Source: Sediminibacterium sp. (lineage in GTDB: Bacteria > Bacteroidota > Bacteroidia > Chitinophagales > Chitinophagaceae). From it: 64,000 nt of DNA. The notes beneath the pieces are model-generated. The model saw only the letters and a program-made list of their open reading frames with translations. It did no database searches and had not been told where the DNA came from. Positions 23,767-39,733 of the stretch are shown piece after piece (the stretch's first letter is position 1; every line of letters starts with the position of its first letter). The DNA lies in contig JAFWCB010000004.1 of NCBI GenBank assembly GCA_017537025.1, positions 124,001 to 188,000 on the forward strand, in the 5' to 3' direction. Position numbers and translations under genes: made by a program.

Positions 23767-23814
23767 ATGAATAAAAATATCCATACACATCATCATTTCT
23801 TACCTATCGGGTAG
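23767..23814 (+). CDS. hisL: Histidine operon leader peptide
   Basis: A 15-codon ORF reading MNKNIHTHHHFLPIG and then TAG, with four His codons (23782, 23788, 23791, 23794), three of them consecutive. It begins 8 bases after a strong -7 element and sits 73 bases upstream of hisG with a terminator between. This is the classic arrangement of a ribosome-mediated attenuator: stalling at His codons when His-tRNA is scarce leaves downstream RNA free to form an antiterminator. Last His codon to predicted antiterminator arm: 13 nt. Confidence 0.85.
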   Translation: MNKNIHTHHHFLPIG

Positions 23815-23870
23815 GCATTGGTGTGTAATCAAATCATACAGCAAGGGCTTACCAAATGGTAAGCCTTTTT
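23810..23870 (+). promoter_or_regulatory. Histidine attenuator: antiterminator and terminator
   Basis: The terminator is GGCTTACC (23846-23853), loop AAAT, GGTAAGCC (23858-23865), then five T. The alternative antiterminator pairs GGTAGGC (23810-23816) with GCTTACC (23847-23853, the terminator's left arm), seven pairs including one G-U. The GGTAGGC arm overlaps the leader stop codon (23812-23814). A ribosome that finishes the leader covers this arm and the terminator forms; one stalled at the His codons leaves it free and hisG is transcribed. Pairings were read by eye; energies were not computed. Confidence 0.8.
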
Positions 23871-23887: not shown

Positions 23888-24757
23888 ATGAACAACAACG
23901 AAGTAAAATTAAAATTAGCCATCCAAAAAAGTGGTAGACTATACGACGATTCTATCCGCCTTTTAAAAGAATGTGGGATTGACATATCAAACGGCGTAAA
24001 TAAATTGAAAGCCGATGCTATGAATTTTCCATTGGAGGTATTTTTCTTGCGTGATGATGATATTCCGCAATATGTTGAAGATGGCGTAGCGGATATCGGG
24101 TTTGTGGGGGAGAATGTAGTATTTGAAAAAAATAAAAAAGTAGCGATTGTAGAGAAACTTGGCTTTGGTAAATGCAGGTTAAGTATAGCGGTTAAAAAAA
24201 GCGAAAACTATACCGATGCTAATTTTCTGAATCAAAAAAAGATTGCAACCAGTTATCCGGTTATTGTAGGTAATTTTTTAGCAGAAAAAGGGATAGATGC
24301 AGAAATTCACGAAATCAGTGGTAGTGTTGAAATTGCTCCCGGTATTGGTTTGGCGGATGTTATTTGTGATTTGGTAAGTAGCGGATCTACTTTATTTATG
24401 AACGGGTTAAAAGAAGCGGAAGTGATTTTACAATCCCAGGCAGTGCTCGTAAAAAATACCCAATTAGCCGCAGATAAAGAAGCGTTGATTCAAAAAATAT
24501 TATTCCGAATAGATTCCGTTAAAAAAGCAAAGAACAATAAATACATTTTGATGAATGCGCCAAATGATAAGCTCGACGAAATCATTCAATTATTACCGGG
24601 AATGAAAAGTCCCACAGTACTGCCATTGGCAAAGAAGGGTTGGAGTAGTGTACACAGCGTAATTAATGAGAATGATTTCTGGGATATGATTGAGCAACTT
24701 AAAAAAGCCGGTGCAGAAGGTATTCTTGTTGTGCCTATTGAAAAAATGATTGTATGA
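23888..24757 (+). CDS. hisG: ATP phosphoribosyltransferase, long form
   Basis: A 289-residue enzyme for the first step of histidine synthesis: ATP plus PRPP to N1-(5-phosphoribosyl)-ATP. The catalytic body (KLAIQKSGRLYDDS, FVGENV, the PRPP-binding DLVSSGSTL near residue 160) is followed from about residue 215 by a C-terminal ACT-like regulatory domain (SPTVLPLAKKGWSSVHSVI, EGILVVPIEKM). This is the long HisG type that works as a hexamer, is feedback-inhibited by histidine and needs no HisZ. First gene after the His attenuator; its stop overlaps the hisD start (ATGA). Confidence 0.95.
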   Translation: MNNNEVKLKLAIQKSGRLYDDSIRLLKECGIDISNGVNKLKADAMNFPLEVFFLRDDDIPQYVEDGVADIGFVGENVVFEKNKKVAIVEKLGFGKCRLSIAVKKSENYTDANFLNQKKIATSYPVIVGNFLAEKGIDAEIHEISGSVEIAPGIGLADVICDLVSSGSTLFMNGLKEAEVILQSQAVLVKNTQLAADKEALIQKILFRIDSVKKAKNNKYILMNAPNDKLDEIIQLLPGMKSPTVLPLAKKGWSSVHSVINENDFWDMIEQLKKAGAEGILVVPIEKMIV

Positions 24758-26055
24758 AAAAATGGATGAACCCTCCCAAACAAGAATGGGATAGTTTATT
24801 AGCACGCCCTAGTTTAAGCTATGCAGGTTTATTGCAAACAGTTACTGATGTGCTGGAAACCGTTAGGCAAGAGGGAGATACAGCGTTGAAAAGATATACC
24901 GGTCAGTTTGATAAGGTAGCACTAAACAAGCTTTATTTAGATGAAAAGGAACTTATAACCTTATCTGAAACGGTTTCTGATAGCTTGAAGCATGCCATAA
25001 CATTAGCTGCGAACAATATCCGTTTTTTCCATGAGAAGCAGGTTCTGCCTATTGAAAAAAATGAAACGATGCCGGGTGTGATTTGCTGGCGTAAGTCGGT
25101 TGCGATAGACAAAGTAGGGCTCTATATACCGGGTGGGTCTGCACCTCTTTTTTCAACTATTCTAATGTTAGGTATTCCCGCTGCTATTGCAGGATGTAAG
25201 GAAATTATTTTATGTACCCCTCCTGATAAAAATGGCGATGTTAATCCCGCTATTGCTTTTGCAGCATTAACGGTTGGTATACGTAAAATATATACCGTTG
25301 GTGGTGTACAAGCCATTGCTGCTATGGCTTTTGGAACGGCAACCATTCCTGCAGTATATAAAATTTTCGGACCCGGTAATCAATATGTTACGCTTGCCAA
25401 GCAGCTGGTACAACAGTATGGTATAGCCATCGATATGCCGGCCGGACCTAGTGAAGTATGTGTGTTAGCTGATGATACAGCTATACCGGAATTTGTGGCT
25501 GCTGATTTATTAAGTCAGGCTGAACATGGTGGGGATAGTCAGGTATTATTAGTAACCACACAAGAATCAATAGTAGATAAAGTAACCACTTGTTTATCTG
25601 ATCAATTAGCAACACTGCCCCGTGCAGATATTGCTAAGGCTGCCATATTGAATAGTAAGGCAATTATCATGGATACAATGGATAAAGCCATTGCAGTAGT
25701 GAATGAATACGCAGCGGAGCATTTAATTATAGCTTGTAAGGACGCAGAAGCTATTGCTTCCAAAATAACCAATGCAGGCTCCGTATTTTTAGGGAATTAT
25801 TCTCCTGAATCAGTGGGCGACTATGCCAGTGGTACTAACCATACTTTACCTACAAATGGTTTTGCACGTGCCTATAGTGGAGTGAGTGTTGATTCTTTTG
25901 TTAAGAAAATTACTTACCAGCAATTATCTGAAACAGGGCTTCGTGATATCGGAAATGCTGTAATGGAAATGGCCAAAGCAGAAGGACTAGAAGCACATAG
26001 CAGGGCAGTGGAATTGAGAATTAAGAATTATGAATTAAAAATTAAGAATTCATAA
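24754..26055 (+). CDS. hisD: Histidinol dehydrogenase
   Basis: A 433-residue NAD-dependent, zinc enzyme for the last two steps of histidine synthesis, histidinol to histidine. Conserved stretches include YIPGGSAPLFST, IFGPGNQYV, IDMPAGPSEV, the zinc-site LSQAEHGGDSQ, and GDYASGTNHTLPT. Residues 420-433 (ELRIKNYELKIKNS) are encoded exactly by six 7-bp repeat units of a heptad array that also contains the stop codon, so the natural C-terminus has been replaced or extended by repeat sequence; all active-site segments lie upstream. Translationally coupled to hisG. Confidence 0.95.
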   Translation: MKKWMNPPKQEWDSLLARPSLSYAGLLQTVTDVLETVRQEGDTALKRYTGQFDKVALNKLYLDEKELITLSETVSDSLKHAITLAANNIRFFHEKQVLPIEKNETMPGVICWRKSVAIDKVGLYIPGGSAPLFSTILMLGIPAAIAGCKEIILCTPPDKNGDVNPAIAFAALTVGIRKIYTVGGVQAIAAMAFGTATIPAVYKIFGPGNQYVTLAKQLVQQYGIAIDMPAGPSEVCVLADDTAIPEFVAADLLSQAEHGGDSQVLLVTTQESIVDKVTTCLSDQLATLPRADIAKAAILNSKAIIMDTMDKAIAVVNEYAAEHLIIACKDAEAIASKITNAGSVFLGNYSPESVGDYASGTNHTLPTNGFARAYSGVSVDSFVKKITYQQLSETGLRDIGNAVMEMAKAEGLEAHSRAVELRIKNYELKIKNS

Positions 26056-26108
26056 TTCCTAACTCATAATTCATAATTCCTAATTTATAACTCATAATTC
26101 ATAATTCT
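26011..26108 (+). repeat. Fourteen-unit heptad-repeat array between hisD and hisC
   Basis: Fourteen contiguous 7-bp units: six of the GAATTNN type (26011-26052) followed by eight of the TAAYTNN type (26053-26108), two bases before the hisC ATG. The two halves are in opposite orientation and can fold into a long AT-rich hairpin. The first six units are translated as the end of HisD; the seventh holds its stop codon. The same unit (AATTCAT and variants) makes the hairpin at 4988-5066, 21 kb away. Confidence 0.9.
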
Positions 26109-26110
26109 TC

Positions 26111-27169
26111 ATGTTCCATCTTCAATCTCTGATACGTGATAATATCAAAAACCTGGTAGCCTACTCATCGGCAAGAGATGAATTTAGTGGGGAGGCCAAG
26201 GTATTTTTAGATGCCAATGAAAATAGCTTGGGGTCGCCTCTGACCAAATGGTATAACCGTTATCCGGATCCGCATCAATTGGCTATTAAGCAAAAATTGG
26301 CGATCATAAAATCGATACCCGTAGAACATATTTTTTTAGGAAATGGCAGTGATGAATGTATCGATTTACTATTCCGATCTTTCTGTAATCCCGGAAAAGA
26401 TAATGTGGTTATTTGTCCACCTACTTATGGGATGTACCAAGTAAGTGCCAATATCAATGATGTGGGTATAAAAAAAGTGCCCCTTACAGAAGATTTTCAG
26501 CTTGATCTTATCCATTTAGAAAATGTAGTTGATGCAAATACTAAGATGATCTGGCTTTGTTCTCCTAACAATCCAACAGGTAACTCACTGAACAGAGCCG
26601 ACATTGAAATAGTTTTAAATAATTTTAATGGATTGGTTGTAGTAGATGAAGCCTATATTAACTTTTCAAAGCAAAAAAGTTTTTTGCAAGAGCTAGCAGA
26701 TTACCCTAATTTGGTAGTATTGCAAACCTTAAGCAAAGCCTGGGGTTTAGCCGGGTTAAGGTTGGGTATGGCATTTGCATCGGCGGCTATAATAGAGGTG
26801 CTGAATAAGGTGAAGCCCCCATACAATATTTCACAAGCTACGCAGGAATTGGTGCTAAAAGCTTTGGACGAAGTAGGACAAGTAAACGATATGATAAAAC
26901 TACTAGTAGATATGCGAGATGCATTAGCCGATGTTTTCCGCTCTATGCCTACTGTTGAAAAAGTATACCCTTCGGATGGTAATTTTATTTTGGTAAAAGT
27001 GAAAGATGCCCGAAAATTGTACGAATTTTTGATCACTAAAGGTATCGTACTGAGGGATAGAAGTAATGTTCAGCTTTGTGAGGATTGTTTACGTATTACC
27101 GTTGGCTCTGAAAAAGATAATACCATATTGATAGATGCTATGCAAGATTGGTATCAAATCAATGCTTAA
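26111..27169 (+). CDS. hisC: Histidinol-phosphate aminotransferase
   Basis: A 352-residue fold-type I PLP enzyme that converts imidazole-acetol phosphate and glutamate to histidinol phosphate. Typical HisC features are LDANENSLG near the N-terminus, RYPDPHQ, GNGSDECIDLL, SPNNPTGN, VDEAYINF and the PLP-lysine motif LSKAWGLAGLRLG with Lys209. The length is standard. The start follows the heptad array by two bases; translation initiation therefore happens next to a potentially structured RNA. Next gene: a sugar dehydrogenase not involved in histidine synthesis. Confidence 0.94.
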   Translation: MFHLQSLIRDNIKNLVAYSSARDEFSGEAKVFLDANENSLGSPLTKWYNRYPDPHQLAIKQKLAIIKSIPVEHIFLGNGSDECIDLLFRSFCNPGKDNVVICPPTYGMYQVSANINDVGIKKVPLTEDFQLDLIHLENVVDANTKMIWLCSPNNPTGNSLNRADIEIVLNNFNGLVVVDEAYINFSKQKSFLQELADYPNLVVLQTLSKAWGLAGLRLGMAFASAAIIEVLNKVKPPYNISQATQELVLKALDEVGQVNDMIKLLVDMRDALADVFRSMPTVEKVYPSDGNFILVKVKDARKLYEFLITKGIVLRDRSNVQLCEDCLRITVGSEKDNTILIDAMQDWYQINA

Positions 27170-27189
27170 TTTCACCAAAAATTATATGT

Positions 27190-28434
27190 ATGAGAATGCT
27201 ATTTAGTATCGTTGCAAATGCGATTTTGTGTACCGCCTGTGTAGCACAAAAAGCCGAAGAAGTGACCATCAAAACTCCTACGGGCTTTAGTACTATCAAT
27301 GTAGTGAAAGATTTTGGTCGGGTTCGGCATATTGCTGTAAACACGAATGGTGATCTGTATTTGAAATTGGAGCGATTAGAAAAGGGGAAGGGAATTATTC
27401 GACTAAGAGATACGAATAAAGATGGGATTTATGATGATACGCTGGCTTTTGGTAACTATATAGGTACTGGAATAGCATTGAAAAATGGATTCCTATATGC
27501 ATCTTCCAATACCACTGTATATCGTTACAAATTAGATGCTAACCAAAATATTACGGATATCAATAACCCCGAAACTATTGTAACGGGATTGGTAGACAAA
27601 CGTCAGCACAGCTCTAAGTCAATCACATTAGATAATGCCGGTAATATTTATGTGAATATTGGCGCACCTTCTAATGTTTGTCAGGAACAGGATCGTCAGC
27701 AAGGGTCTAAGGGCATGATGCCTTGCCCCATTTTAGAAACTGCCGGAGGTATCTGGCAATTTAAGGCCGATAAACTTAATCAATCTTATGCAGAAGGGGT
27801 ACGGTATGCAACGGGTTTGAGAAATGTTGTTGGTTTAGATTGGAATGATGAAGTAAATGAGTTGTTTGTTACTGTACATGGAAGAGACATGTTATTTCAA
27901 CACTATCCGCAACTGTATAATCAAAAAGCAGGAGCAGAATTACCATCTGAAACCATGTATATGATTAAGAAAGGTGATGATGGCGGATGGCCCTATGTAT
28001 ATTGGGATCATTTACAAAAGAAAAAAATCTTATCACCTGAATATGGAGGAGATGGTAAAAAAACAGGGGCACCACAGGCGATTGAACCACTTGTAGGGTT
28101 CCCCGGACATATGGCACCAAACGCCCTTTTGTTCTATAAAGGCAATCAATTCCCCGCTAAGTATAAACAAGGTGCTTTCATTGCTTTCCATGGCAGTTGG
28201 AACCGTTCTCCTGAGCCTCAAGAAGGGTTTTACGTAGTTTTTGTACCTATGAAGAATGGTAAGCCCTCAGGTAACTGGGAGGTTTTTGCAAACGGTTTTT
28301 CAGGGTTTGAAAAAGTGGATAATTTAGGAGCTGTGAAACACCGCCCTTGTGGTTTGGCTGAGGGTTCGGATGGCTCACTTTACGTATCCGATGATAATAA
28401 AGGATATGTTTGGAAAATTTCCTATAAAAAATAG
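27190..28434 (+). CDS. PQQ-dependent-type soluble sugar dehydrogenase (GDH/sorbosone family)
   Basis: A 414-residue exported six-bladed propeller of the glucose/sorbosone dehydrogenase family. Supporting segments are FGRVRHIAVNTNGDLYL, GLRNVVGLDWN, KGDDGGWPYVYWDH, FIAFHGSWNRSPE and HRPCGLAEGSDGSLYVSDD, which ends the propeller. The start at 27190 gives a signal peptide (MRMLFSIVANAILCTACVAQ); an in-frame upstream ATG at 27148 overlaps hisC and is less likely. Such enzymes oxidise sugars in the periplasm with PQQ. A cytochrome c gene follows 2 bases later, a natural electron acceptor. The pair sits inside the histidine operon; the substrate is unknown. Confidence 0.85.
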   Translation: MRMLFSIVANAILCTACVAQKAEEVTIKTPTGFSTINVVKDFGRVRHIAVNTNGDLYLKLERLEKGKGIIRLRDTNKDGIYDDTLAFGNYIGTGIALKNGFLYASSNTTVYRYKLDANQNITDINNPETIVTGLVDKRQHSSKSITLDNAGNIYVNIGAPSNVCQEQDRQQGSKGMMPCPILETAGGIWQFKADKLNQSYAEGVRYATGLRNVVGLDWNDEVNELFVTVHGRDMLFQHYPQLYNQKAGAELPSETMYMIKKGDDGGWPYVYWDHLQKKKILSPEYGGDGKKTGAPQAIEPLVGFPGHMAPNALLFYKGNQFPAKYKQGAFIAFHGSWNRSPEPQEGFYVVFVPMKNGKPSGNWEVFANGFSGFEKVDNLGAVKHRPCGLAEGSDGSLYVSDDNKGYVWKISYKK

Positions 28435-28436
28435 AT

Positions 28437-28850
28437 ATGAAGAAATTTAGCGTTTTTATAGTGATTATTTTTTCGGCTATTGTTTATTTATTCGCGCAAA
28501 CAGGAACTGTTGATATAAAAGCAAGTGTTCAAAGAGGTAAAAAAGTATATACCCAATATTGTTTGGCTTGTCATCAAGCCGATGGCGGCGGGGTTCCCCG
28601 AATGAATCCTCCATTACAAAAAACAGAATATGTATTAGGTGATAAAAAAAGGCTGATCAATATTGTTTTAAAGGGATCGAATGATCCTATTGAAATTAAT
28701 GGCGAAGAATATGTGAATCCAATGGCGTCGCATGCGCATCTAAGCGATCAGCAAATAGCAGATGTACTCACATTTGTGAGAAATAGTTTTGGAAATAAAG
28801 CGTCGGGTATAACTCCAGCCGAAGTAAAACAAGCAAGAGCAAAAAAATAG
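28437..28850 (+). CDS. Class I cytochrome c, secreted
   Basis: A 137-residue exported monohaem cytochrome c. After an uncleaved or cleaved N-terminal hydrophobic segment (residues 4-20) comes the haem-binding CLACH at about residues 42-46, and a probable Met ligand in YVNPMASH, followed by the C-terminal helix DQQIADVLTFVRNSF. It is encoded 2 bases after the sugar dehydrogenase and most likely takes electrons from it towards the respiratory chain. Followed 4 bases later by hisB. Confidence 0.9.
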   Translation: MKKFSVFIVIIFSAIVYLFAQTGTVDIKASVQRGKKVYTQYCLACHQADGGGVPRMNPPLQKTEYVLGDKKRLINIVLKGSNDPIEINGEEYVNPMASHAHLSDQQIADVLTFVRNSFGNKASGITPAEVKQARAKK

Positions 28851-28854
28851 TTTC

Positions 28855-29985
28855 ATGAAACCTGTTTTGTTTATTGATAGAGATGGGGTGATTTTACAGG
28901 AGCCGCCGACTGATTTTCAGGTTGATAGTGTTGATAAAACAAGATTTGTAAAAAAATCAATTTCTGTTCTTTCTCGTATTGCGAAAGACTTTGATTTTTA
29001 TAAGGTAATGGTTACAAATCAGGATGGACTGGGAACAGCAAGTTACCCGGAAACCGATTTTTGGCCTTATCAACAACTCATGATTGATACATTAGCAGGA
29101 GAGGGGTTTTTATTCGATGAAGTTCATATAGATAAAACTTTTGCTGTTGACAATAAACCTACCCGTAAACCGGGTACTGCATTATTGACACATCTTATCA
29201 ATAACCCCCAATTCGATCTTCATAATTCCTATGTAATTGGGGATAGATGGAGTGATATTGAATTGGCCAAGAACCTAGGGGCGAAAGCTATTTATTTAAA
29301 ATCCGGATTGCATTCACTTACAGCCGAGCAATATGCTGCATACCAATCCGTAATCGCATTGGAAACAGACGACTGGGATGCGATTTATAATTTTTTAAAA
29401 CTTGGTTTGCGGGTAGTTGAACATGAACGTAACACCAACGAAACCAAGATTCATATTCGACTGAATATGGATGGTACCGGGAAAGCTAATATTCAAACAG
29501 GATTAGGTTTTTTCGACCACATGCTTGAGCAAATTGCCCGTCACGGAAGTATTGATTTAGAAATAATGGCTAAAGGAGATTTGCATATCGACGAACACCA
29601 TACTATTGAGGATACCGGTATTGCATTAGGGGAAGCTTTTGCAAAAGCCCTACTCGATAAGCGCGGTATTACAAGATACGGATTTGCTTTACCTATGGAC
29701 GAGGCAGAAGCTAAAGTATTAATTGATTTTGGGGGTAGGAATTGGATAGTTTGGGATGCGGATTTTAAAAGAGAAAAAATTGGGGAGGTGCCAACCGAAA
29801 TGTTCTTTCATTTCTTTAAATCTTTTAGTGATGCTGCCAAATGTAATCTGAATATTTTTTGCGCCGGCGAGAACGAACATCATAAAATTGAAGCCATATT
29901 CAAAGCTTTTGCGAAAGCTATACGAATGGCCGTTAAAAGAGACCCTTTTAACGAACAATTACCTAGTACAAAAGGGGTTCTTTAG
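28855..29985 (+). CDS. hisB: Bifunctional histidinol-phosphatase/imidazoleglycerol-phosphate dehydratase
   Basis: A 376-residue fusion. Residues 1-165 are a HAD phosphatase with FIDRDGV (Asp8, Asp10) that dephosphorylates histidinol phosphate; residues about 180-376 are the IGP dehydratase, with the metal-binding histidines in FFDHMLEQIARHG, DEHHTIEDTG and the terminal ENEHHKIEAIFKA. This bifunctional form is typical of enterobacteria and Bacteroidota. It is the last gene of the first his transcript; 17 bases later the convergent DUF2147 gene ends, and no strong terminator is visible between them. Confidence 0.95.
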   Translation: MKPVLFIDRDGVILQEPPTDFQVDSVDKTRFVKKSISVLSRIAKDFDFYKVMVTNQDGLGTASYPETDFWPYQQLMIDTLAGEGFLFDEVHIDKTFAVDNKPTRKPGTALLTHLINNPQFDLHNSYVIGDRWSDIELAKNLGAKAIYLKSGLHSLTAEQYAAYQSVIALETDDWDAIYNFLKLGLRVVEHERNTNETKIHIRLNMDGTGKANIQTGLGFFDHMLEQIARHGSIDLEIMAKGDLHIDEHHTIEDTGIALGEAFAKALLDKRGITRYGFALPMDEAEAKVLIDFGGRNWIVWDADFKREKIGEVPTEMFFHFFKSFSDAAKCNLNIFCAGENEHHKIEAIFKAFAKAIRMAVKRDPFNEQLPSTKGVL

Positions 29986-30470: not shown

Positions 30471-30502
30471 TTTTGTTTTTTAAATCAAATTAACACATAT
30501 TT
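30471..30502 (+). promoter_or_regulatory. Tryptophan operon promoter
   Basis: TTTG at 30471-30474, a 20-bp spacer, then CATATTTG at 30495-30502, seven of eight matches to TAnnTTTG. The leader-peptide ATG follows at 30507, so the predicted transcript is leaderless or has only a few leader bases. The -33 element is 5 bases from the DUF2147 start codon. Confidence 0.75.
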
Positions 30503-30506
30503 GCAT

Positions 30507-30563
30507 CATGAATTTAATAAATAAGCATTGGTGGTGGCATACAAACTCCGTTCGGGGATTGTA
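30507..30563 (+). CDS. trpL: Tryptophan operon leader peptide with flanking His codons
   Basis: An 18-codon ORF reading MNLINKHWWWHTNSVRGL and then TAA. Three consecutive Trp codons (30528-30536) are flanked on both sides by His codons (30525 and 30537). It starts 5 bases after the promoter -7 element and precedes an intrinsic terminator and trpE, the classic leader for Trp-tRNA sensing. The spacing from the last Trp codon to the predicted antiterminator arm (14 nt) is nearly the same as in the histidine leader (13 nt). Confidence 0.87.
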
Positions 30564-30623
30564 ATGGCTATGCCAGTACTTTTTTGATAATATCAAGGCC
30601 CCGACTTTTTAGTCGGGGTTTTT
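30551..30623 (+). promoter_or_regulatory. Tryptophan attenuator: antiterminator and terminator
   Basis: Terminator: CCCCGAC (30598-30604), loop TTTTTA, GTCGGGG (30611-30617), then six T. Antiterminator: TCGGGG (30551-30556) is fully complementary to CCCCGA (30598-30603), the left arm of the terminator. The TCGGGG arm lies in the last codons of the leader ORF, where a ribosome at the stop codon would cover it and allow termination; stalling on the Trp codons would leave it free. A small TGGC-TAT-GCCA hairpin lies between. Pairings read by eye. Confidence 0.82.
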
Positions 30624-30638
30624 TATTTAAAACTATGT

Positions 30639-32054
30639 ATGAAACGAATTAATATAACAACTGAATGTAAGAAAATGCTAGGGGATGTGTACACACCTGT
30701 AGGTATTTATCTTCGTTTAAGAGACCGCTTTAGAGATACTATTTTATTAGAGAGTACTGATCATCATGTATCTGAAAACAGCTATTCTTTTATTTGTATT
30801 AATGCAATTGCTGGTATTGAGATCAGCTCGTCAAATAGTGTTGAGTTCAAGTTACCGGGGGAACAGCCGGAAAAGCAATCCATCAATAGCAGTACCAATA
30901 TCCCTAAACTAGTTTGGCAATTTATTCAACGATTTTCATATAATAAGGAATCGCATAAAGAGCTGGATTTTGCGCAAGGTCTATATGGCTATACTAATTT
31001 TGAAGCAGTTCAGTTTTTTGATACCGTTCAATTACAGTCGCCGCAAACATACCCTATCCCTTTAATGCGATACAGACTTTATCAATACGTGATTGCATGT
31101 AATCATTTTAAAGATGAATTATATCTCTGCGAAAATAAAATTGGAGGGATAGAGTCTGAGTTTTCTGTGGTTGAATCATTGATTAAAAGTAAAGACGTTC
31201 CTGTATTCCCATTTGCCTTAGTAGGAGATGAGCGCTCTAACTTCTCAGATGATGCGTATCAGCAAATGGTTAAGAAAGGTATTGATTCATGTTTACGGGG
31301 GGATGTTTTCCAAATTGTTTTGAGCAGAAGATTTGAACAGCATTTTACCGGAGATGAGTTTAATGTATATCGCGCATTACGAAATATCAACCCCTCACCT
31401 TATTTATTTTTCTTCGACTACGGCGATTATAAATTGATTGGATCCTCTCCTGAAGCCCAGCTGGTAGTAGCTAATGGTAAAGCGATCGTACACCCAATTG
31501 CGGGTACTTTCAAACGTACAGGTGATGAGGCTGCTGATTTGAAAGAAACAGAACGTTTACTGGCCGATCCAAAAGAAAATGCAGAACATGTAATGTTAGT
31601 AGATCTCGCCCGAAACGATTTGAGTAGGGTTTGTGATGATGTTACCGTAAGTCATTATCGTCAGGTTCATTATTACAGTCATGTCATTCATTTGGTAAGC
31701 GAGGTAACAGGATCTGTAAAACCTGATCATAACCCTTTTGAGTTATTAGCTAAAACATTTCCTGCAGGTACCTTAAGTGGTGCACCTAAAATAAAAGCCA
31801 TGGAGTTGATTGATACATACGAATCCTCTGCTAGAGGTTTCTATGGTGGAGCTATCGGATTTGTAGGATTTAATGGCAATTTTAATCATGCTATTATGAT
31901 ACGAACATTCCTTAGTAAAAATAATACGTTGATTTCTCAGGCAGGTGCGGGAGTGGTAGCTGCCAGTAAACCGGAACTGGAACTACAAGAAGTAAATAAC
32001 AAATTAGGTGCTTTAAAGAAAGCTGCTTTTGTAGCACAATCTATTAATGGGTAA
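30639..32054 (+). CDS. trpE: Anthranilate synthase component I
   Basis: A 471-residue chorismate-using enzyme that makes anthranilate with ammonia delivered by TrpG. The tryptophan feedback-site motif LLES is at residues 36-39 (TILLESTDHH), so the enzyme is probably inhibited by tryptophan. The chorismate-binding half contains FQIVLSRRFEQ, GSSPEAQL, HPIAGTFKRTGD, LVDLARNDLSRV, FPAGTLSGAPKIKAM and QAGAGVVAAS. First structural gene after the Trp attenuator; trpG follows 5 bases later. Confidence 0.95.
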   Translation: MKRINITTECKKMLGDVYTPVGIYLRLRDRFRDTILLESTDHHVSENSYSFICINAIAGIEISSSNSVEFKLPGEQPEKQSINSSTNIPKLVWQFIQRFSYNKESHKELDFAQGLYGYTNFEAVQFFDTVQLQSPQTYPIPLMRYRLYQYVIACNHFKDELYLCENKIGGIESEFSVVESLIKSKDVPVFPFALVGDERSNFSDDAYQQMVKKGIDSCLRGDVFQIVLSRRFEQHFTGDEFNVYRALRNINPSPYLFFFDYGDYKLIGSSPEAQLVVANGKAIVHPIAGTFKRTGDEAADLKETERLLADPKENAEHVMLVDLARNDLSRVCDDVTVSHYRQVHYYSHVIHLVSEVTGSVKPDHNPFELLAKTFPAGTLSGAPKIKAMELIDTYESSARGFYGGAIGFVGFNGNFNHAIMIRTFLSKNNTLISQAGAGVVAASKPELELQEVNNKLGALKKAAFVAQSING

Positions 32055-32059
32055 ATGAT

Positions 32060-32626
32060 ATGAAAATACTAGTATTTGATAATTACGATTCCTTTACCTA
32101 TAATTTGGTTCATTTAATTGCAAAAGAACCGGGAATAACCGTTACCGTAAAGCGCAATGATGAGATTCCCTTAGAGATAGTAAAAGAATATGATAAAATA
32201 GTACTATCTCCTGGTCCGGGTATTCCGCAAGAAGCAGGGCTATTATTGCCATTAATAAAGGAGTATGCTGCTTCAAAACCTATATTGGGCGTATGTTTAG
32301 GGCATCAGGCTATCGGGGAATCTTTTGGCGCCGGGTTAGTAAATCTTACACAGGTATATCATGGCGTAGCAACACCCATCACACATAGAGATAATAGTTA
32401 TCTCTTTAAAGGATTATCTAAAACACTAACTGTGGGGAGATATCATAGCTGGGTTGTAAGTGATCAATTGCTACCTGAAAGTTTAGCTATTACTGCCATT
32501 GATGATAATGGTTTCATCATGGGTTTACAACATCGGGAATATGATATTCAGGGGGTACAATTTCATCCTGAAAGTGTATTAACACCGGATGGTGCTACCA
32601 TCATAAAAAACTGGCTTACTTATTAA
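32060..32626 (+). CDS. trpG: Anthranilate synthase component II (glutamine amidotransferase)
   Basis: A 188-residue class I glutamine amidotransferase that supplies ammonia to TrpE. Catalytic Cys79 lies in GVCLGHQAIGE; the His/Glu pair is in VQFHPESVLTPDG. The oxyanion loop LSPGPGIP is present. It is not fused to TrpD or TrpC, unlike in enteric bacteria. TrpG often also serves 4-amino-4-deoxychorismate synthase in bacteria with one copy; that cannot be judged here. Confidence 0.95.
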   Translation: MKILVFDNYDSFTYNLVHLIAKEPGITVTVKRNDEIPLEIVKEYDKIVLSPGPGIPQEAGLLLPLIKEYAASKPILGVCLGHQAIGESFGAGLVNLTQVYHGVATPITHRDNSYLFKGLSKTLTVGRYHSWVVSDQLLPESLAITAIDDNGFIMGLQHREYDIQGVQFHPESVLTPDGATIIKNWLTY

Positions 32627-32635
32627 TAGGAATCT

Positions 32636-33628
32636 ATGAAAAAGATATTACAACAATTATTTGAACATAAAACACTTAGCCGTATACAAGCGAAAGATAT
32701 TTTAATGCAGATGTCGGGTGGTGCATACAATGAATCTGAAATTGCTGCTTTTATAACCGTTTTTCTGATGCGCAGTATTACCATCGAAGAATTGCAAGGG
32801 TTTAGAGATGCTTTGTTGGAGTTGGCGGTACCGGTTGTATTAGATAATTCCGAAACTATTGATATTGTAGGAACAGGAGGCGATGGTAAAAATACTTTCA
32901 ATATTTCCACCCTTGCCTGCTTAATTGTTGCCGGTGCCGGCGTAAAAGTTACTAAACATGGCAATTACGGTGCTTCCTCAATAAGCGGTGCATCTAATGT
33001 AATGGAACAATTAGGGTATCGATTTAAAAATGATACAAATGTTTTGCAAAAAGAATTAGATGAAGCTAATATATGTTTCTTACATGCGCCATTATTTCAT
33101 CCTGCTTTGAAAATAGTTGCTCCGATTCGTAAAAATCTTGGCGTTCGTACCTTCTTTAATATGTTAGGGCCTATGGTAAATCCGGCAAAACCCGCTTTTC
33201 AACTCGTAGGGGTTTACAATTTAGAAATGGCAAGAATTTATAATTATCTCTTACAACAAACTAAATCCCGATTTACTATTATTCATGGATTAGATGGGTA
33301 TGATGAAATTTCACTTACCAATGATACTAAAGTAATTACCCAACAAGGAGAGGCCATTTATACACCTGAACAACTTGGAAAAAGAATGGTGATGGCAGAA
33401 GATATTTATGGAGGGAATACCGTGGAAGCATCTGCTAAATTATTTGCTAAAATAATCAAAGGAGAAGGGTCATGGTCGCAACATGCAGTAGTATTGGCCA
33501 ATGCAGCCATGGCATTATATGGTTTAGGTAAGTATCAAAAATATGATGATGCGTATGCTGCGGCGATTGAGAGTTTAGAGTCCGGTAGTGCTTATGCATG
33601 TTTGCAAAAACTAATTAGTTTACAGTAA
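32636..33628 (+). CDS. trpD: Anthranilate phosphoribosyltransferase
   Basis: A 330-residue enzyme that transfers phosphoribose from PRPP to anthranilate. The PRPP loop GTGGDGKNTFNIST (about residues 80-93) and the KHGNYGASSISGASNVMEQLG anthranilate-binding region, broken here as KHGNYGASS plus SGASNVMEQLG, are both present; RKNLGVRTFFNMLGPM follows. Standard single-domain length. Lies between trpG (9-bp gap) and trpC (7-bp gap) in a tightly packed operon. Confidence 0.95.
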   Translation: MKKILQQLFEHKTLSRIQAKDILMQMSGGAYNESEIAAFITVFLMRSITIEELQGFRDALLELAVPVVLDNSETIDIVGTGGDGKNTFNISTLACLIVAGAGVKVTKHGNYGASSISGASNVMEQLGYRFKNDTNVLQKELDEANICFLHAPLFHPALKIVAPIRKNLGVRTFFNMLGPMVNPAKPAFQLVGVYNLEMARIYNYLLQQTKSRFTIIHGLDGYDEISLTNDTKVITQQGEAIYTPEQLGKRMVMAEDIYGGNTVEASAKLFAKIIKGEGSWSQHAVVLANAAMALYGLGKYQKYDDAYAAAIESLESGSAYACLQKLISLQ

Positions 33629-33635
33629 TAATTTT

Positions 33636-34436
33636 ATGATGAATATATTAGATACCATAGTTGCCACAAAAAGAAAAGAGGTGGAAGAGCAGAAGAAGCG
33701 GGTTTCTTTTGAAGAACTTAGTATACAACTGTTGAGTACTGAAAAGGTGTATTCTCTCAAAGAAAATTTAATTAACCCCGGGAGTACAGGAATAATTGCT
33801 GAATTTAAAAGAAAATCGCCAAGTAAGGGAATTATTAATAATGAGGCGTTGGTTACCGAAGTAACAAGTGCCTATTGTAAGTATGGTGCCGCCGCAATTT
33901 CTGTACTAACCGATCAACCTTTTTTTGGAGGTAGTATGGAAGATCTACTGGCAGTAACCCAGTTGCCGATTCCTGTGCTGCGAAAAGATTTTATGATTGA
34001 TCCTTATCAAATATTGGAGGCTAAACTTGCTGGAGCTTCGGTTATTTTATTAATAGCAGCATGTTTATCACCTACTGAGGTAGGTATGATGACAGAAAAG
34101 GCACATGAGGTTGGATTAGAGGTTTTACTCGAGATACATAATGAAGAGGAATTGGGGCATATTTCTAAGGAGATTGATTTGGTTGGAGTGAATAACAGAA
34201 ATCTCAAAGATTTTAGCGTGAATCTCGAACACTCTATTCGATTATCACAAAAAATCCCTGCCTATATACCCGCTATCGCAGAAAGTGGTATTCATAGTGC
34301 TGATACTGTTGTAACTTTAAAGCGTGCCGGTTTCAAAGGTTTTTTAATGGGCGAATACTTTATGAAAGAGGCTTCACCCGCGATTGCTTTTGCCAATTTT
34401 ATGAATGAATTAAAAGTAAAGCAGTATGCGGATTAA
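33636..34436 (+). CDS. trpC: Indole-3-glycerol-phosphate synthase
   Basis: A 266-residue TIM-barrel enzyme that converts carboxyphenylamino-deoxyribulose phosphate to indole-3-glycerol phosphate. Signatures: IIAEFKRKSPSKG (beta-1 lysine), AAAISVLTDQPFFGG, PVLRKDFMIDPYQ, VGVNNRNLKDF and AESGIHSADT. It is a stand-alone TrpC, not fused to TrpF. The annotated start has two ATG codons in a row; either may be used. The end overlaps trpF by 11 bases. Confidence 0.95.
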   Translation: MMNILDTIVATKRKEVEEQKKRVSFEELSIQLLSTEKVYSLKENLINPGSTGIIAEFKRKSPSKGIINNEALVTEVTSAYCKYGAAAISVLTDQPFFGGSMEDLLAVTQLPIPVLRKDFMIDPYQILEAKLAGASVILLIAACLSPTEVGMMTEKAHEVGLEVLLEIHNEEELGHISKEIDLVGVNNRNLKDFSVNLEHSIRLSQKIPAYIPAIAESGIHSADTVVTLKRAGFKGFLMGEYFMKEASPAIAFANFMNELKVKQYAD

Positions 34437-35064
34437 AGTATGTGGTTTAACCAACATTGATCAATTCAATGAACTGGATGGATTAGGAGTTGATTTTGGT
34501 GGATTTATTTTCTATCACAAATCTCCACGATATGTATTTAAGCATTTGCCAAGAATGGCTATCAAGAAAGCAAAAGGAAAAAACATTAATAAGGTTGGGG
34601 TATTTGTAAACGAAGAAGCAGATGAAGTACTACAAACAGTGGATGACTGCGGACTGTATTTAGTGCAGTTACATGGTGATGAAACTCCCCGATATTGCGA
34701 AAAAATATCAAACTATGTTTCTGTAATTAAAGCTTTTAGGATTCGTGAAGACGATAATATTGAGTGGAAGATTAAAGATTATCAAGATGCTGCTGATATG
34801 TTTTTATTTGATACTGCCGGCACAGCATATGGAGGTACCGGGCAACAATTTAATTGGGAAAAACTAGCATCGGCAGATATTAAAAAACCATTTTTTTTAA
34901 GTGGTGGAATTGGATTGGAAGATGTAGCAGCTATTCAACAATTTGCTACAACACCTGTTGCAAAGGATTTATTTTCTCTGGATATCAATAGCAAGTTTGA
35001 AACGGCACCAGGTATAAAGAATATTCCATTAATCGAAAATTTTATTAAAGCCTTTCCGCGATGA
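34426..35064 (+). CDS. trpF: Phosphoribosylanthranilate isomerase
   Basis: A 212-residue TIM-barrel isomerase. The catalytic start MRIKVCGLTN (general base Cys, residue 6) and GGFIFYHKSPRYV, the LVQLHGDETP strand, and LFDTAGTAYGGTGQQFNW and LSGGIGLEDV phosphate-site segments are all present. Overlaps trpC by 11 bases and shares ATGA with the next ORF. HisA, which catalyses a mechanistically similar Amadori rearrangement, is encoded later on the same transcript. Confidence 0.93.
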   Translation: MRIKVCGLTNIDQFNELDGLGVDFGGFIFYHKSPRYVFKHLPRMAIKKAKGKNINKVGVFVNEEADEVLQTVDDCGLYLVQLHGDETPRYCEKISNYVSVIKAFRIREDDNIEWKIKDYQDAADMFLFDTAGTAYGGTGQQFNWEKLASADIKKPFFLSGGIGLEDVAAIQQFATTPVAKDLFSLDINSKFETAPGIKNIPLIENFIKAFPR

Positions 35065-35570
35065 AAAAGATATATCTTCTAGTTTTATTAGTCTCTTGCT
35101 TGGCGGCTTCTGCTTATACCCAACAACTTAGTAATGTTTATCTGAATCAAAACGGTCATGCCTCCTATCGTATTTCTCTCAACAATATCTATATTGTTAT
35201 TAGTGAAGCAGGTAAATTAAAAGAAATTAAAACAGACGCACAAGGCACAATTGTATATAGTACTACAAAACGAGTAGAACAAATAGGCAATACCAAAATA
35301 GGATTTAATTATCAAGGCTGGGTAAACACTATTGGTGAAGTGAGCGTACAATACGATTATAGTGGAAGGGTAGATAGGATCGGAAATTTAGTAATTCGAT
35401 ATAACTATAATGGTATCGTACAATCTATCGGTTCTCAAAATATCGTGTATAATGGAGATAATAGTATGGATAGGTTCGATAGATATAAGATAGTCTATAA
35501 CTATAACAAACAGGTACAACAGGTAGATAATAGCAACGGATTAATATTGTTAGAACTTAATTATAATTAA
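35061..35570 (+). CDS. Secreted beta-repeat protein of unknown function inside the trp operon
   Basis: A 169-residue protein with a clear signal peptide ([21 protein letters not shown]). The mature part is rich in Tyr, Asn, Ile and Gly and consists of short repeats of about 18-20 residues with a common form: IGNxxIxYNYxGxVxxIG (for example [18 protein letters not shown]), suggesting a flat beta sheet. I do not recognise the family. It is coupled by an ATGA overlap to trpF and ends 2 bases before trpB, so it must be co-transcribed with tryptophan genes. There is no cysteine in the mature part and no enzyme motif. Confidence 0.75.
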
Positions 35571-35572
35571 AA

Positions 35573-36763
35573 ATGAGTGTCATAATAGATTACCAAAAAC
35601 CAAGTGTGCAGGGATATTACGGCGATTTCGGCGGAGCTTATATTCCTGAAATGCTACATGCCAATGTTGCAGAATTGCGCGAGCAGTATTTAAATATTAT
35701 GCAAGAAGATTCTTTTCAAGAAGAGTTTCAAGCTTTGCTACGGGATTATGTGGGAAGACCAACCCCATTATTTTATGCAGCAAGACTTAGTGAAAAGTAT
35801 AACACAAATATCTATTTAAAAAGAGAAGATCTTTGTCATACCGGGGCACATAAAATCAACAATACGGTAGGGCAAATTTTATTAGCTCGCCGATTAGGTA
35901 AAACAAGAATTATTGCGGAAACAGGTGCGGGGCAGCATGGTGTAGCCACGGCTACGGTATGTGCGCTCAAGGGAATGCAATGTATTGTATATATGGGAGA
36001 AAAAGATATTGAGCGACAGGCACCGAATGTGGCTCGAATGAAAATGTTAGGTGCGGAAGTAAGGCCTGCAACCAGTGGCAGTAAAACACTAAAAGATGCT
36101 ACTAATGAAGCGATCCGCGATTGGATTAACCACCCTCAAGATACCCATTATATTATCGGGAGCGTTGTTGGGCCACATCCGTATCCCGATATGGTGGCAC
36201 GTTTTCAAAGTGTCATTAGTGAGGAAATAAAGAAACAATTGCAAGCTAAAACTGGCTCCGAACTTCCTACCCATGTAATTGCTTGTGTTGGAGGCGGAAG
36301 TAATGCGGCGGGTGCTTTTTATCATTTCTTAAATGATGTAACAGTAAAATTAATTGCTGTTGAAGCTGCCGGAGAGGGAGTACAATCAGGTAAAACAGCA
36401 GCTACCACTGCATTAGGAACAATGGGTATTTTGCATGGCAGTAAAAGCTTACTGATGCAAACTGCCGATGGACAAGTAGTGGAACCACACAGTATTTCTG
36501 CAGGCTTAGATTATCCCGGTATTGGTCCGCTTCACGCCAATTTATTTAAATCGGGCAGAGGTATTTTTATAAGTGCTACAGACGAAGAAGCACTAGAAGC
36601 TGCTTTTATGGTTAGTAAAACGGAAGGTATCATACCTGCTTTAGAAACGGCACATGCATTTGCGGCTTTAGATCAACTAATATTCGACAAAAACGATCAG
36701 GTCGTAATTTGTTTGAGTGGTAGGGGTGATAAAGATCTCGCAACTTATATGGCTAGATTATGA
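35573..36763 (+). CDS. trpB: Tryptophan synthase beta chain
   Basis: A 396-residue PLP enzyme that condenses indole with serine. The PLP lysine is Lys94 in HTGAHKINN, the phosphate-binding loop is [10 protein letters not shown], and the conserved E in [11 protein letters not shown] lies upstream. The sequence belongs to the TrpB1 type that pairs with TrpA. It starts 2 bases after the secreted protein gene and is separated from trpA by 48 bases that hold an 8-bp tandem repeat. Confidence 0.96.
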
Positions 36764-36767
36764 ACTG

Positions 36768-36791
36768 ACTTGGCGTCTTAGCGTCTTTGCG
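36768..36791 (+). repeat. Three 8-bp tandem repeats between trpB and trpA
   Basis: Units ACTTGGCG, TCTTAGCG and TCTTTGCG lie head to tail, 4 bases after the trpB stop codon and 20 bases before the trpA ATG. Consensus TCTTNGCG. GC content is higher than in the surrounding gap. I recall similar CTTTGCGTCTTAGCG-like intergenic arrays in unrelated bacteria; not verified. Confidence 0.75.
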
Positions 36792-36811
36792 TTTAAGAAA
36801 AACAGTAAAAA

Positions 36812-37591
36812 ATGAACAATCGCTTACAAAAAATATTCGAGCAAGAGAAGAAGATTCTAAATGTATACTTCACTGCCGGTTATCCGGAATTAGAATCTAC
36901 GATTCCCATTATGGAATTACTGGCGAAGCATGGCGCAGATATTATCGAGTTAGGAATGCCTTATAGCGATCCCTTAGCCGATGGTCCTGTAATACAGGCA
37001 AGTAGTACCATAGCATTAGGAAATGGGATGAGTATTGAAAAACTATTTGAGCAACTTGCAGCTTTTAGAGAAAATAGTCAGTTGCAAAATACAGGTGTTA
37101 TTCTAATGGGTTATATGAACCCTATTTTGCAGTATGGGTTTGAAGCTTTCTGTGCTAAAGCCTCAGCAGTGGGTATAGACGGACTTATACTCCCCGATTT
37201 GCCGGAATATGAATTTGAGAAGATATACGGAGAAATCATAAAAAAATATGGATTAAATTTTATTTTTTTAATAACACCGGAAACAAGTGAACAAAGAATA
37301 AGAAAACTGGATGAGCTAAGTAGCGGTTTTTTATATGCTGTATCTTCATCTTCAACAACAGGCTCAGCAACTAATAAAGAATTTGTTACTGCTTACCTAC
37401 AGCGGTTAGCTACTTATAAACTTAGTAATCCTATACTTGTTGGCTTTGGTATTAAAGATAAAGAAAGCTTTACCATGGCTGCAGAATACACCAGCGGTGC
37501 CATCATTGGTTCAGCTTTTATTCAGGCATTAGGTACAGGGAAAGATATTAATGAAATTATCCCGGCTTTTTTAAACCCAATTATTACTTAA
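36812..37591 (+). CDS. trpA: Tryptophan synthase alpha chain
   Basis: A 259-residue TIM barrel that cleaves indole-3-glycerol phosphate to indole. The catalytic pair is Glu46 in IIELGMPYSDP and Asp57 in PLADGPVIQ; the product loop includes GLILPDLPEYE and SSSSTTGSA. Its TAA stop overlaps the hisH ATG by one base (TAATG), which directly couples tryptophan and histidine genes. Confidence 0.95.
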   Translation: MNNRLQKIFEQEKKILNVYFTAGYPELESTIPIMELLAKHGADIIELGMPYSDPLADGPVIQASSTIALGNGMSIEKLFEQLAAFRENSQLQNTGVILMGYMNPILQYGFEAFCAKASAVGIDGLILPDLPEYEFEKIYGEIIKKYGLNFIFLITPETSEQRIRKLDELSSGFLYAVSSSSTTGSATNKEFVTAYLQRLATYKLSNPILVGFGIKDKESFTMAAEYTSGAIIGSAFIQALGTGKDINEIIPAFLNPIIT

Positions 37592-38190
37592 TGGAATTAG
37601 CCATCATACAATATAATGCGGGAAATATTCAATCGGTTTTATATGCGTTGGAGAGAATAGGTATTACGGCTCTAGTAACCGATGATCCAGAAACCATTAG
37701 TGCTGCCGATAAAGTTATTTTTCCCGGGGTTGGAGAAGCCAGTTCGGCTATGCGATATCTGAAAGAAAGATCATTGGATAAACTAATAGTTTCTTTACAG
37801 CAGCCTGTATTAGGTATTTGCTTGGGTATGCAGTTGATGTGCAGCTATAGTGAAGAGAATGATACAGATTGTTTGGGCATTTTTAGTGAACAGGTAAAAC
37901 AATTTGCTAATCAAACACCAACAGGTGACGTACTAAAAGTACCTCAAATTGGATGGAATCAGATTTATGATACAAAAACGGAACTTTTTGCTAATATACC
38001 TGCGAATAGTTATTGTTATTTTGTGCATGGCTATTATGCAGCTAAAGGGGCAGATACCATTGCTACCGCTAATTATGGGATTGATTATAGTGCCGCTTTA
38101 CATAAAAAAAATTTTTATGGCACACAATTTCACCCTGAAAAAAGTGCATTGATAGGAGAAAAAATATTATCCAACTTTCTATCTCTATAA
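37591..38190 (+). CDS. hisH: Imidazole glycerol phosphate synthase, glutaminase subunit
   Basis: A 199-residue class I amidotransferase that feeds ammonia to HisF. Catalytic Cys77 is in GICLGMQLM; the His/Glu pair is in FHPEKSALIG. The N-terminal IIQYNAGNIQSV and FPGVGEASSAM are typical. Coupled to trpA by a 1-base overlap, and so probably controlled by the Trp attenuator. The stop codon lies in the first unit of a heptad array. Confidence 0.95.
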   Translation: MELAIIQYNAGNIQSVLYALERIGITALVTDDPETISAADKVIFPGVGEASSAMRYLKERSLDKLIVSLQQPVLGICLGMQLMCSYSEENDTDCLGIFSEQVKQFANQTPTGDVLKVPQIGWNQIYDTKTELFANIPANSYCYFVHGYYAAKGADTIATANYGIDYSAALHKKNFYGTQFHPEKSALIGEKILSNFLSL

Positions 38191-38212
38191 CCTATAACCT
38201 ATCACCTACAAC
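38185..38212 (+). repeat. Four-unit heptad array between hisH and hisA
   Basis: CTATAAC, CTATAAC, CTATCAC, CTACAAC, ending exactly at the hisA ATG. The hisH stop codon (38188-38190) is inside the first unit. All units have the same orientation, so no hairpin is expected. Confidence 0.8.
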
Positions 38213-38926
38213 ATGCAAATCATTCCCGCAATAGATATAATAAATGGTAAATGTGTTCGCCTCACGCAAGGAGATTATGCACAAATGAAAGTGTATAATG
38301 AAAATCCATTGGATGTTGCTAAACAGTTTGAAGATGCCGGATTAGAGCGATTGCATTTAGTTGATTTAGATGGCGCTAGGGCGGGGTCGGTTAAAAACTG
38401 GAAAGTATTAGAAGCTATTTCTCGTGATACTAAATTAAGCATTGATTTTGGTGGTGGTATAAAACAGCAATCAGATCTTGAAACAGTATTTGAAGCCGGT
38501 GCAACCTTTGCTACCATTGGTAGCTTAGCGGTAAAATCGCCGGAAATTTTTAAAAACTGGATAGAAATATACGGAGCAAACAAGTTTTTATTGGGTGCAG
38601 ATGTAAAAGATGAAAAAATTGCTGTAGGAGGCTGGTTAGAAACAACAGATATAAATCTGTTTGATTTTATAATTGATTATGCAGCTAAAGGTATTACACA
38701 GGTATTTTGTACAGATATCAGTAAAGATGGAAAACTAGAGGGTCCGGCTATTTCATTATATGAAAAGATTGTAAGTCATTTTCCGGATCTTTTTTTTATA
38801 GCCAGCGGTGGTATAAGTTCAATTGAAGATGTTATTCAACTAAGAAACATAGGGTGTAAAGGAGTAATAATTGGAAAGGCAATATATGAAGGAAGAATAA
38901 CTTTAGATCAACTAAAAGACTATTAA
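38213..38926 (+). CDS. hisA: ProFAR isomerase
   Basis: A 237-residue half-barrel-duplicated TIM barrel that isomerises ProFAR to PRFAR. Landmarks: IIPAIDIINGKCVRLTQGDY with the catalytic Asp (residue 7), VDLDGA, the DFGGGIKQQ phosphate site and the second Asp in [23 protein letters not shown] forms the second phosphate site. Located 22 bases after hisH and 31 bases before hisF, both gaps being heptad-like. Confidence 0.95.
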   Translation: MQIIPAIDIINGKCVRLTQGDYAQMKVYNENPLDVAKQFEDAGLERLHLVDLDGARAGSVKNWKVLEAISRDTKLSIDFGGGIKQQSDLETVFEAGATFATIGSLAVKSPEIFKNWIEIYGANKFLLGADVKDEKIAVGGWLETTDINLFDFIIDYAAKGITQVFCTDISKDGKLEGPAISLYEKIVSHFPDLFFIASGGISSIEDVIQLRNIGCKGVIIGKAIYEGRITLDQLKDY

Positions 38927-38952
38927 ATAACCGTAGCTCGTAACTCATATCT
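38925..38952 (+). repeat. Degenerate heptad array between hisA and hisF
   Basis: AAATAAC, CGTAGCT, CGTAACT, CATATCT, followed by CAACC and the hisF ATG. The units are diverged but the TAACTCAT core also occurs in the hisD-hisC array. The hisA stop codon (38924-38926) touches the first unit. Period is suggestive rather than certain. Confidence 0.5.
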
Positions 38953-38957
38953 CAACC

Positions 38958-39716
38958 ATGTTAACAAAACGCATTATACCTTGTTTGGATATTAAAGACG
39001 GAAGAACTGTTAAAGGCATCAACTTCGAAAATATCAGAGATGCTGGTGACCCCGTGAAATTGGGGGCATTATATGCATCACAAGGTGCTGATGAGTTGGT
39101 TTTTTTAGATATTACAGCCACTAATGAAAAAAGGAAAACGCTTAGTGCGCTAGTGAATAAAATTGCACATCATATTAATATACCCTTTACGGTTGGCGGT
39201 GGTATAAGCTCCATAGAAGATGTATATACTTTATTACAAAATGGGGCCGACAAAATTTCGGTAAATACATCTGCATTTAAAAACCCTTCTCTGATAGAAG
39301 CGCTTGCAAAAGAATTCGGTAGTCAGTGTATTGTATTGGCAATCGATACAAAAAAAGAAGCCGACAATAATTGGTATGTGTATTTGAATGGGGGTAAAGT
39401 AAAAACAGAGACATTTTGTATCGATTGGGCAAAACGAGGTGTTGATTTGGGTGCCGGAGAAATTTTACTTACTTCTATGAATAACGATGGAACTAAAGAA
39501 GGCTTTGCTTTAGATATCACTAAGGCTTTGTCAACTTCACTACCTGTTCCCGTAATTGCCTCCGGCGGAGCCGGCACTATCGAGCATTTCGAGGACGTAT
39601 TTCTTACCGCTAAAGCCGATGCAGCACTTGCTGCAAGTATTTTTCATTTTAAAGAAATAGAAATCCCCACACTTAAAAAAAGCCTGCAAAAAAAAGGTAT
39701 TCCAATGCGATTCTAA
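38958..39716 (+). CDS. hisF: Imidazole glycerol phosphate synthase, cyclase subunit
   Basis: A 252-residue TIM barrel that uses ammonia from HisH to form IGP and AICAR. Landmarks: [16 protein letters not shown] with the catalytic Asp11, [33 protein letters not shown] (second catalytic Asp region), [16 protein letters not shown] and [12 protein letters not shown]. Last-but-one enzyme gene of the his part; hisIE follows 17 bases later. Confidence 0.95.
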
Positions 39717-39733
39717 TAACCGAACTTTAGAAT

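Follow-up and report, generated by a model that had tools for sequence, protein, structure and literature searches.

A leader peptide carrying Trp and His codons as a probable bivalent attenuator of a mixed trp-his operon in Chitinophagaceae

In a 64,000-nucleotide (nt) stretch of a Sediminibacterium sp. genome (GenBank assembly GCA_017537025.1, contig JAFWCB010000004.1, positions 124,001 to 188,000 of the forward strand; hereafter the window, whose coordinates are used throughout), a leader peptide in which His codons flank a run of three Trp codons precedes an operon for the biosynthesis of both amino acids. We consider it likely that this leader is a bivalent Trp/His attenuator (an OR gate), with a His codon maintained on account of the position of the trp genes within the his operon; a single switch probably answers to shortage of either Trp or His. 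Among Chitinophagaceae, a family of soil and water bacteria whose his operons often contain the trp genes, a His codon beside the Trp run goes with the presence of his genes behind trpA, and the association persists on a phylogenetic tree.

The leader open reading frame (ORF) MNLINKHWWWHTNSVRGL occupies 30508..30564 with its stop, on the plus strand like all features below unless noted, with ATG at 30508-30510 and TAA at 30562-30564, and is conserved across the family. The first His codon (CAT, 30526..30528) lies ahead of the three Trp control codons (TGG, 30529..30537), and the second (CAT, 30538..30540), the proposed His sensor, directly follows them. Beyond the leader stands an intrinsic terminator with a T run (30595..30624; core stem 30599-30605/30612-30618, stem CCCCGACTTTTTAGTCGGGG at 30599-30618), and then trpE, trpG, trpD, trpC, trpF, an unnamed ORF (35061-35570), trpB and trpA (30639..37591), followed by hisH, hisA, hisF and hisIE (37591..40330), the hisH start overlapping the trpA stop by one base. 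This confirms the arrangement described in an initial annotation of the DNA, of a leader with His on both sides of the Trp run ahead of a trp-his transcript. TrpG, trpD, trpC, trpB, trpA, hisH, hisA and hisF score above the curated cut-offs of their family models, trpE and trpF are identified by their best family-model match, below the cut-off, and hisIE is identified by Pfam. Folding of 30490-30630 is 4.4 standard deviations better than that of 200 shuffles, and TGGTGGTGGCAYACNAAYTC, present a single time in the window, is absent from all 100 shuffles.

The comparison drew on a TrpE search of 147 Chitinophagaceae genomes, 109 of which gave a match and had their loci retrieved; gene order was set by tblastn and the leaders were read afterwards. 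Loci with hisH, hisA or hisF behind trpA were called linked and those with none unlinked, the others being split or undecided; a call required more than 1500 nt past trpA, and shorter loci were classed as unknown. The family set kept 168 of 169 loci (L108, which starts inside trpE, was dropped), the window being counted among the 105 linked ones. Linked and unlinked counts omit 21 unknown loci (19 with His directly after the Trp run, position +1, and 2 without) and 8 split loci (5 with His, 2 without, 1 lacking a leader). Sixty held-out genomes were chosen among the matches listed, by list place and assembly quality, before their leaders were seen. From 80 named loci, 35 with a TrpE identical to one already in the set and 3 at contig edges were set aside and 42 used, some of them close to sampled loci; the closest named record to the window by TrpE (97% identical) is an uncultured Flavihumibacter metagenome-assembled genome, L198.

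Under a single rule, which looks for His up to two codons from the Trp run on either side, 105/105 linked leaders carry it and 15/34 unlinked ones do. At +1 it is found in 102 of the 105 linked leaders and in the same fraction, 15/34, of unlinked ones; the three linked exceptions read WWWQH, HWWWQ and HWWWQ and carry His at another adjacent place, and the remaining 19 unlinked leaders have Gln, Leu, Ser, Tyr or Asn instead. His at +1 separates the classes in the discovery set (linked 59/62, unlinked 9/22; Fisher p=3.0e-7) and in the held-out genomes (41/41 and 5/11, p=2.3e-5; 42/42 and 6/12 including two leaders from a wider reading), and named non-duplicate loci carry His in 22/22 linked and 2/3 unlinked cases. 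Some linked leaders have diverged elsewhere yet retain His (WWHVSRAYAV, WWWHNISS, WWHGISD, SWHLNSDQG), and some unlinked ones have lost it but kept the rest (WWWQTNAERGL, WWWQTNVQRGL). This is a double dissociation, in which His follows linkage and not the conservation of the rest of the leader.

The unlinked class was considered as a possible artefact of short contigs, an explanation rejected on the basis of the 1500-nt requirement and of the his genes found elsewhere. By our reading of the tables, 17 of the 22 unlinked genomes of the discovery set have hisG and hisH elsewhere, on one strand and no more than 5 kb apart, an arrangement that resembles an intact his operon. Of the other five, G118 (locus L048) carries hisH at 105200, outside the retrieved stretch and on the same strand, and in G095, G048, G134 and G044 hisG, hisH or both were not found.

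On a tree of TrpE alone, comprising 138 linked and unlinked operons (135 in an earlier run; L110, whose trpE is in pieces, was omitted from the tree only), a model in which gene order and His are correlated beats independence (likelihood-ratio statistic 28.65, 4 degrees of freedom, p=9.2e-6). The estimated rate of His loss is 2.09 in unlinked and 0.062 in linked lineages, about 30-fold apart. The correlation survives removal of the deep clade (p=1.5e-4) and the additional recoding of L048 as linked (p=1.0e-4), and it is seen in the held-out genomes alone (p=3.4e-4). Parsimony gives at least 11 gene-order changes within the family, and of the 12 maximal clades formed by unlinked operons, 6 lack His, 5 carry it and 1 is mixed. 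Control positions put through the same test give no association for Thr at +2 (p=0.22), Ser at +4 (p=0.08) and the end motif (p=0.08).

The predicted RNA structures place both kinds of codon where a stalled ribosome would matter. In the window, a 1:2 protector hairpin (30518..30586) is predicted to pair the Trp/His codons with sequence beyond the leader stop, and a predicted antiterminator arm TCGGGGATTG (30552..30561), within the last codons of the leader ORF, has its partner at 30594..30604, in common with the terminator 5' arm. A terminator is found in 215 of the 218 leaders entered and is well supported by covariation, with 97.2% of cells paired across 71 leaders and changes on both sides in 19 cells (3.8 in shuffles). 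The 1:2 hairpin, with at least 4 Trp-run bases paired past the stop, is found in 103/103 linked and 28/34 unlinked leaders folded, and the predicted duplexes give an alternative antiterminator that shares the terminator 5' arm. The gaps to the arm at 30552 (23 nt from the end of the first His codon, 14 from the last Trp and 11 from the second His) agree with those first reported. Across 116 linked leaders with His, from the family and named sets, the arm starts at a median of 13 nt after the first His base, mostly 9-19 nt, with two leaders at 1 and one at 23.

Stalling was modelled by taking the first free base as 13 nt past the first base of the A-site codon, a setting that we take to reflect the ribosome footprint, and by folding the emerged RNA; the model took 116 of 139 leaders (93 of 105 linked), with a duplex below -9 kcal and the arm at +9 to +19. 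Averaged over the 93 linked leaders, the number of antiterminator pairs is 8.65 with the ribosome stalled at the first Trp, 8.66 with it at the last and 8.34 with it at the codon right behind the run (His); it falls to 6.70, 2.13 and 0.70 at subsequent codons and to 0 at the stop, and is 2.54 without a ribosome. The values for the window are 5.95, 5.95 and 5.88 at the first Trp, last Trp and His, followed by 4.02, 0.02 and 0.01, 0 at the stop and 0.48 without a ribosome. A footprint of 15 gives values of 7.53 for a stall at His and 3.83 one codon later; when it is set to 11, a stall one codon past His also leaves the arm almost free (8.05). His thus sits at the edge of the permissive zone: with footprints of 13 and 15, no codon beyond it leaves the arm nearly free. 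In this model, stalling at the control codons for either Trp or His would free the antiterminator. The stall profile of unlinked leaders is similar, and the difference is the codon.

These results bear on which His codon would act as the sensor. The initial annotation had favoured the first as the safer one and had suggested that a ribosome at the second might partly block the arm. The first His is present in only 23/104 linked and 0/34 unlinked leaders (association with linkage on the tree, p=0.007) and was rejected as the main sensor, while the second is the conserved one (102/105), its median distance of 13 nt placing the arm beyond the modelled ribosome front. The broader proposal, that one attenuator senses either amino acid, gains from the comparative, tree-corrected association, with the account of which His is involved in need of amendment.

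The proposed mechanism is as follows. When Trp and His are both ample, the ribosome would reach the leader stop and cover the arm, so that the terminator forms. When charged tRNA-Trp or tRNA-His is short, it would stall on a Trp codon or on the His just after, with its front edge just before the arm, and would itself break the 1:2 hairpin. The freed arm would then pair with the terminator 5' side, and transcription would enter trpEGDCFBA and hisHAF-IE. Lacking the His codon, such a switch would allow ample Trp to shut down the distal half of His biosynthesis when His is scarce; the codon would be kept because the trp genes and their attenuator lie inside the his operon. As to history, we lean, somewhat less firmly, towards a trp operon that was inserted with its attenuator into a his operon, the leader becoming a two-pathway OR gate family-wide and its His codon decaying once the his genes leave.

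Several observations weigh against a bivalent switch. His persists in 15/34 unlinked operons, which shows that the codon decays slowly or has another use. The expectation of the initial annotation, that His would be retained where his genes follow trpA and absent where they do not, is therefore borne out in its first half (105/105) and not in its second; relatives without downstream his genes but with His, which it had named as counter-evidence, do occur, and the rule is strong but one-sided. Among the 17 genomes with hisG and hisH together elsewhere, 7 have His after the Trp run and 10 do not, and in L104 and L107, also unlinked, a single Trp further along the leader is followed two codons later by His. 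Next to three Trp codons, the signal from one or two His codons is weak. Covariation of the antiterminator is weak (82.1% paired, with a similar score after a slide of +1), probably reflecting a one-base shift of the G run in two leader classes. The phylogenetic test uses the TrpE tree only, and one control, Asn at +3, is likewise associated (p=4.5e-4). The controls are thus not entirely clean, though the loss rates differ by a larger factor at His (2.09/0.062) than at Asn (4.25/0.68). Outside the family, where 16 of 20 loci from other families of the order have a leader and 2 of these are linked, the linked L335 has no His in its leader, and L337 and L347 have His right after the run with linkage not established. 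The other linked locus, L334 (genome G506), counts in favour of the switch, its leader MTINITWHIWWNSLHKGR having His within its Trp cluster (TWHIWW), perhaps of independent origin; L348 has His right before the Trp run, its linkage likewise not established.

Some of these observations are shared with an explanation in which His is kept for RNA pairing, its CAT forming the tip of the 1:2 hairpin, or through ancestry, and not for sensing, the unlinked operons being lineages with changed leaders. The third base of the His codon is paired in the predicted hairpin in 93/103 linked leaders (17/34 unlinked), a further point against the bivalent switch, and RNA pairing may therefore partly account for the use of CAT, which outnumbers CAC by 88 to 12. 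The Asn association fits as well, and the unlinked operons that keep His are closer on the tree to linked relatives (median 0.552 vs 0.72, p=0.0013). Yet the hairpin remains in unlinked leaders (28/34), pairing offers no reason to track gene order, the association survives on the tree, and the three linked exceptions have His at another adjacent place; we regard this explanation as unlikely. An ordinary Trp attenuator, with hisHAF-IE carried along on Trp supply and a His codon that is neutral or sets the pace, would accord with the dominance of the three Trp codons, with the His leader that the upstream his operon has of its own, and with the unlinked leaders that keep His. A neutral codon should not, however, show loss rates as different as those of linked and unlinked lineages, which makes an ordinary Trp attenuator very doubtful.

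Upstream of the leader, TTTG at 30472-30475 and CATATTTG at 30496-30503, 4 nt ahead of the leader ATG, form a promoter-like pair (30472-30503) that we take to resemble the Bacteroidota promoter consensus. TTTG ends 3-10 nt before the leader ATG in 132/159 leaders, a second TTTG peak lies some 28 nt upstream of this one, and full TAnnTTTG occurs within 45 nt upstream in 31/159 leaders (shuffled mean 5.9). A Shine-Dalgarno-like G run is present in only 3/159, and the mRNA from which the leader ORF is translated may be almost leaderless.

The remaining his genes of the window form a separate upstream operon, absent from the initial annotation, with hisG, hisD, hisC, two non-his genes and hisB (23888..29985); hisG, hisD and hisB are identified by Pfam, and hisC only as a class I/II aminotransferase. 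It is preceded by a leader ORF of its own, MNKNIHTHHHFLPIG (23767..23814), with His codons and no Trp, and by a terminator read by eye (GGCTTACC/GGTAAGCC with a T run, 23846..23870). A simple rule finds a His-rich leader at 16 of 30 Chitinophagaceae hisG loci; that of L290 ends in a Trp codon, and the other 15 have no Trp. Between hisB and the Trp leader lies a DUF2147 gene on the minus strand (30002-30466), which is found in several close relatives and not in L198, where the Trp leader closely trails hisB. The ORF in the trpF-trpB gap has no Pfam match at E 1e-6 and stands at the same place in several relatives.

Operon fusions should create regulatory conflict, and here ample Trp would starve the cell of its last His enzymes; the leader suggests that one codon may settle such a conflict. 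The repeated gene-order changes make this testable within Chitinophagaceae, and, if the bivalent switch is real, an attenuator leader would be a readable record of operon fusion and fission. The leader also gives codon-level evidence of leader-peptide attenuation in Bacteroidota. According to the available part of a 2010 survey (PMC2965389), leader-peptide systems were known only in Proteobacteria and Actinobacteria, plus its own in Firmicutes, and the corresponding part of a 2020 Bacteroides transcriptome map (PMC7366714) has only short ORFs reminiscent of leader peptides. The Rfam family Bacteroid-trp (RF01692; PMC2864571), in the part of its description available, is a cis-regulatory candidate in Bacteroidetes tied to trp by name, and in both respects resembles the window leader. 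RF01692 is absent among the 25 Rfam matches of the leader region (E up to 10), Trp_leader (RF00513) scores 18.4 bits there, below its gathering score of 41 bits, and none of 20 further loci matched an Rfam model at its gathering score; on these results, the idea that the leader belongs to a known Rfam family was rejected.

The gene order has precedents. Trp genes interrupt the his operon in Thermoflavifilum thermophilum and Filimonas lacunae, as they do in the window, according to the relevant part of PMC8305728 (2021), which states that expression data do not exist; in its main text a term search finds no 'leader' and a single 'attenuat', in a general account of his regulation. A taxonomy look-up places both species in Chitinophagaceae. 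No report of a Trp/His leader was found by title or abstract start in literature weighted to open journals, so that the trp-in-his gene order is already published for two species and the leader itself is without a report found. As far as the available part of PMC1183508 describes them, the E. coli trp and Salmonella his attenuators are alike in having a short ORF with control codons, a terminator, a competing antiterminator, a protector hairpin and biosynthesis genes downstream; the window leader differs in its codons for two unrelated amino acids, in an arm inside the end of the leader ORF, and in its phylum. Multivalent attenuation as such is long known. It was reportedly described for ilvGEDA by Lawther and Hatfield in 1980, and that system is similar in that one leader is said to answer to more than one amino acid. 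The amino acids of ilvGEDA belong to one connected pathway, whereas the window joins two separate pathways through gene insertion, and its second control codon goes with gene order.
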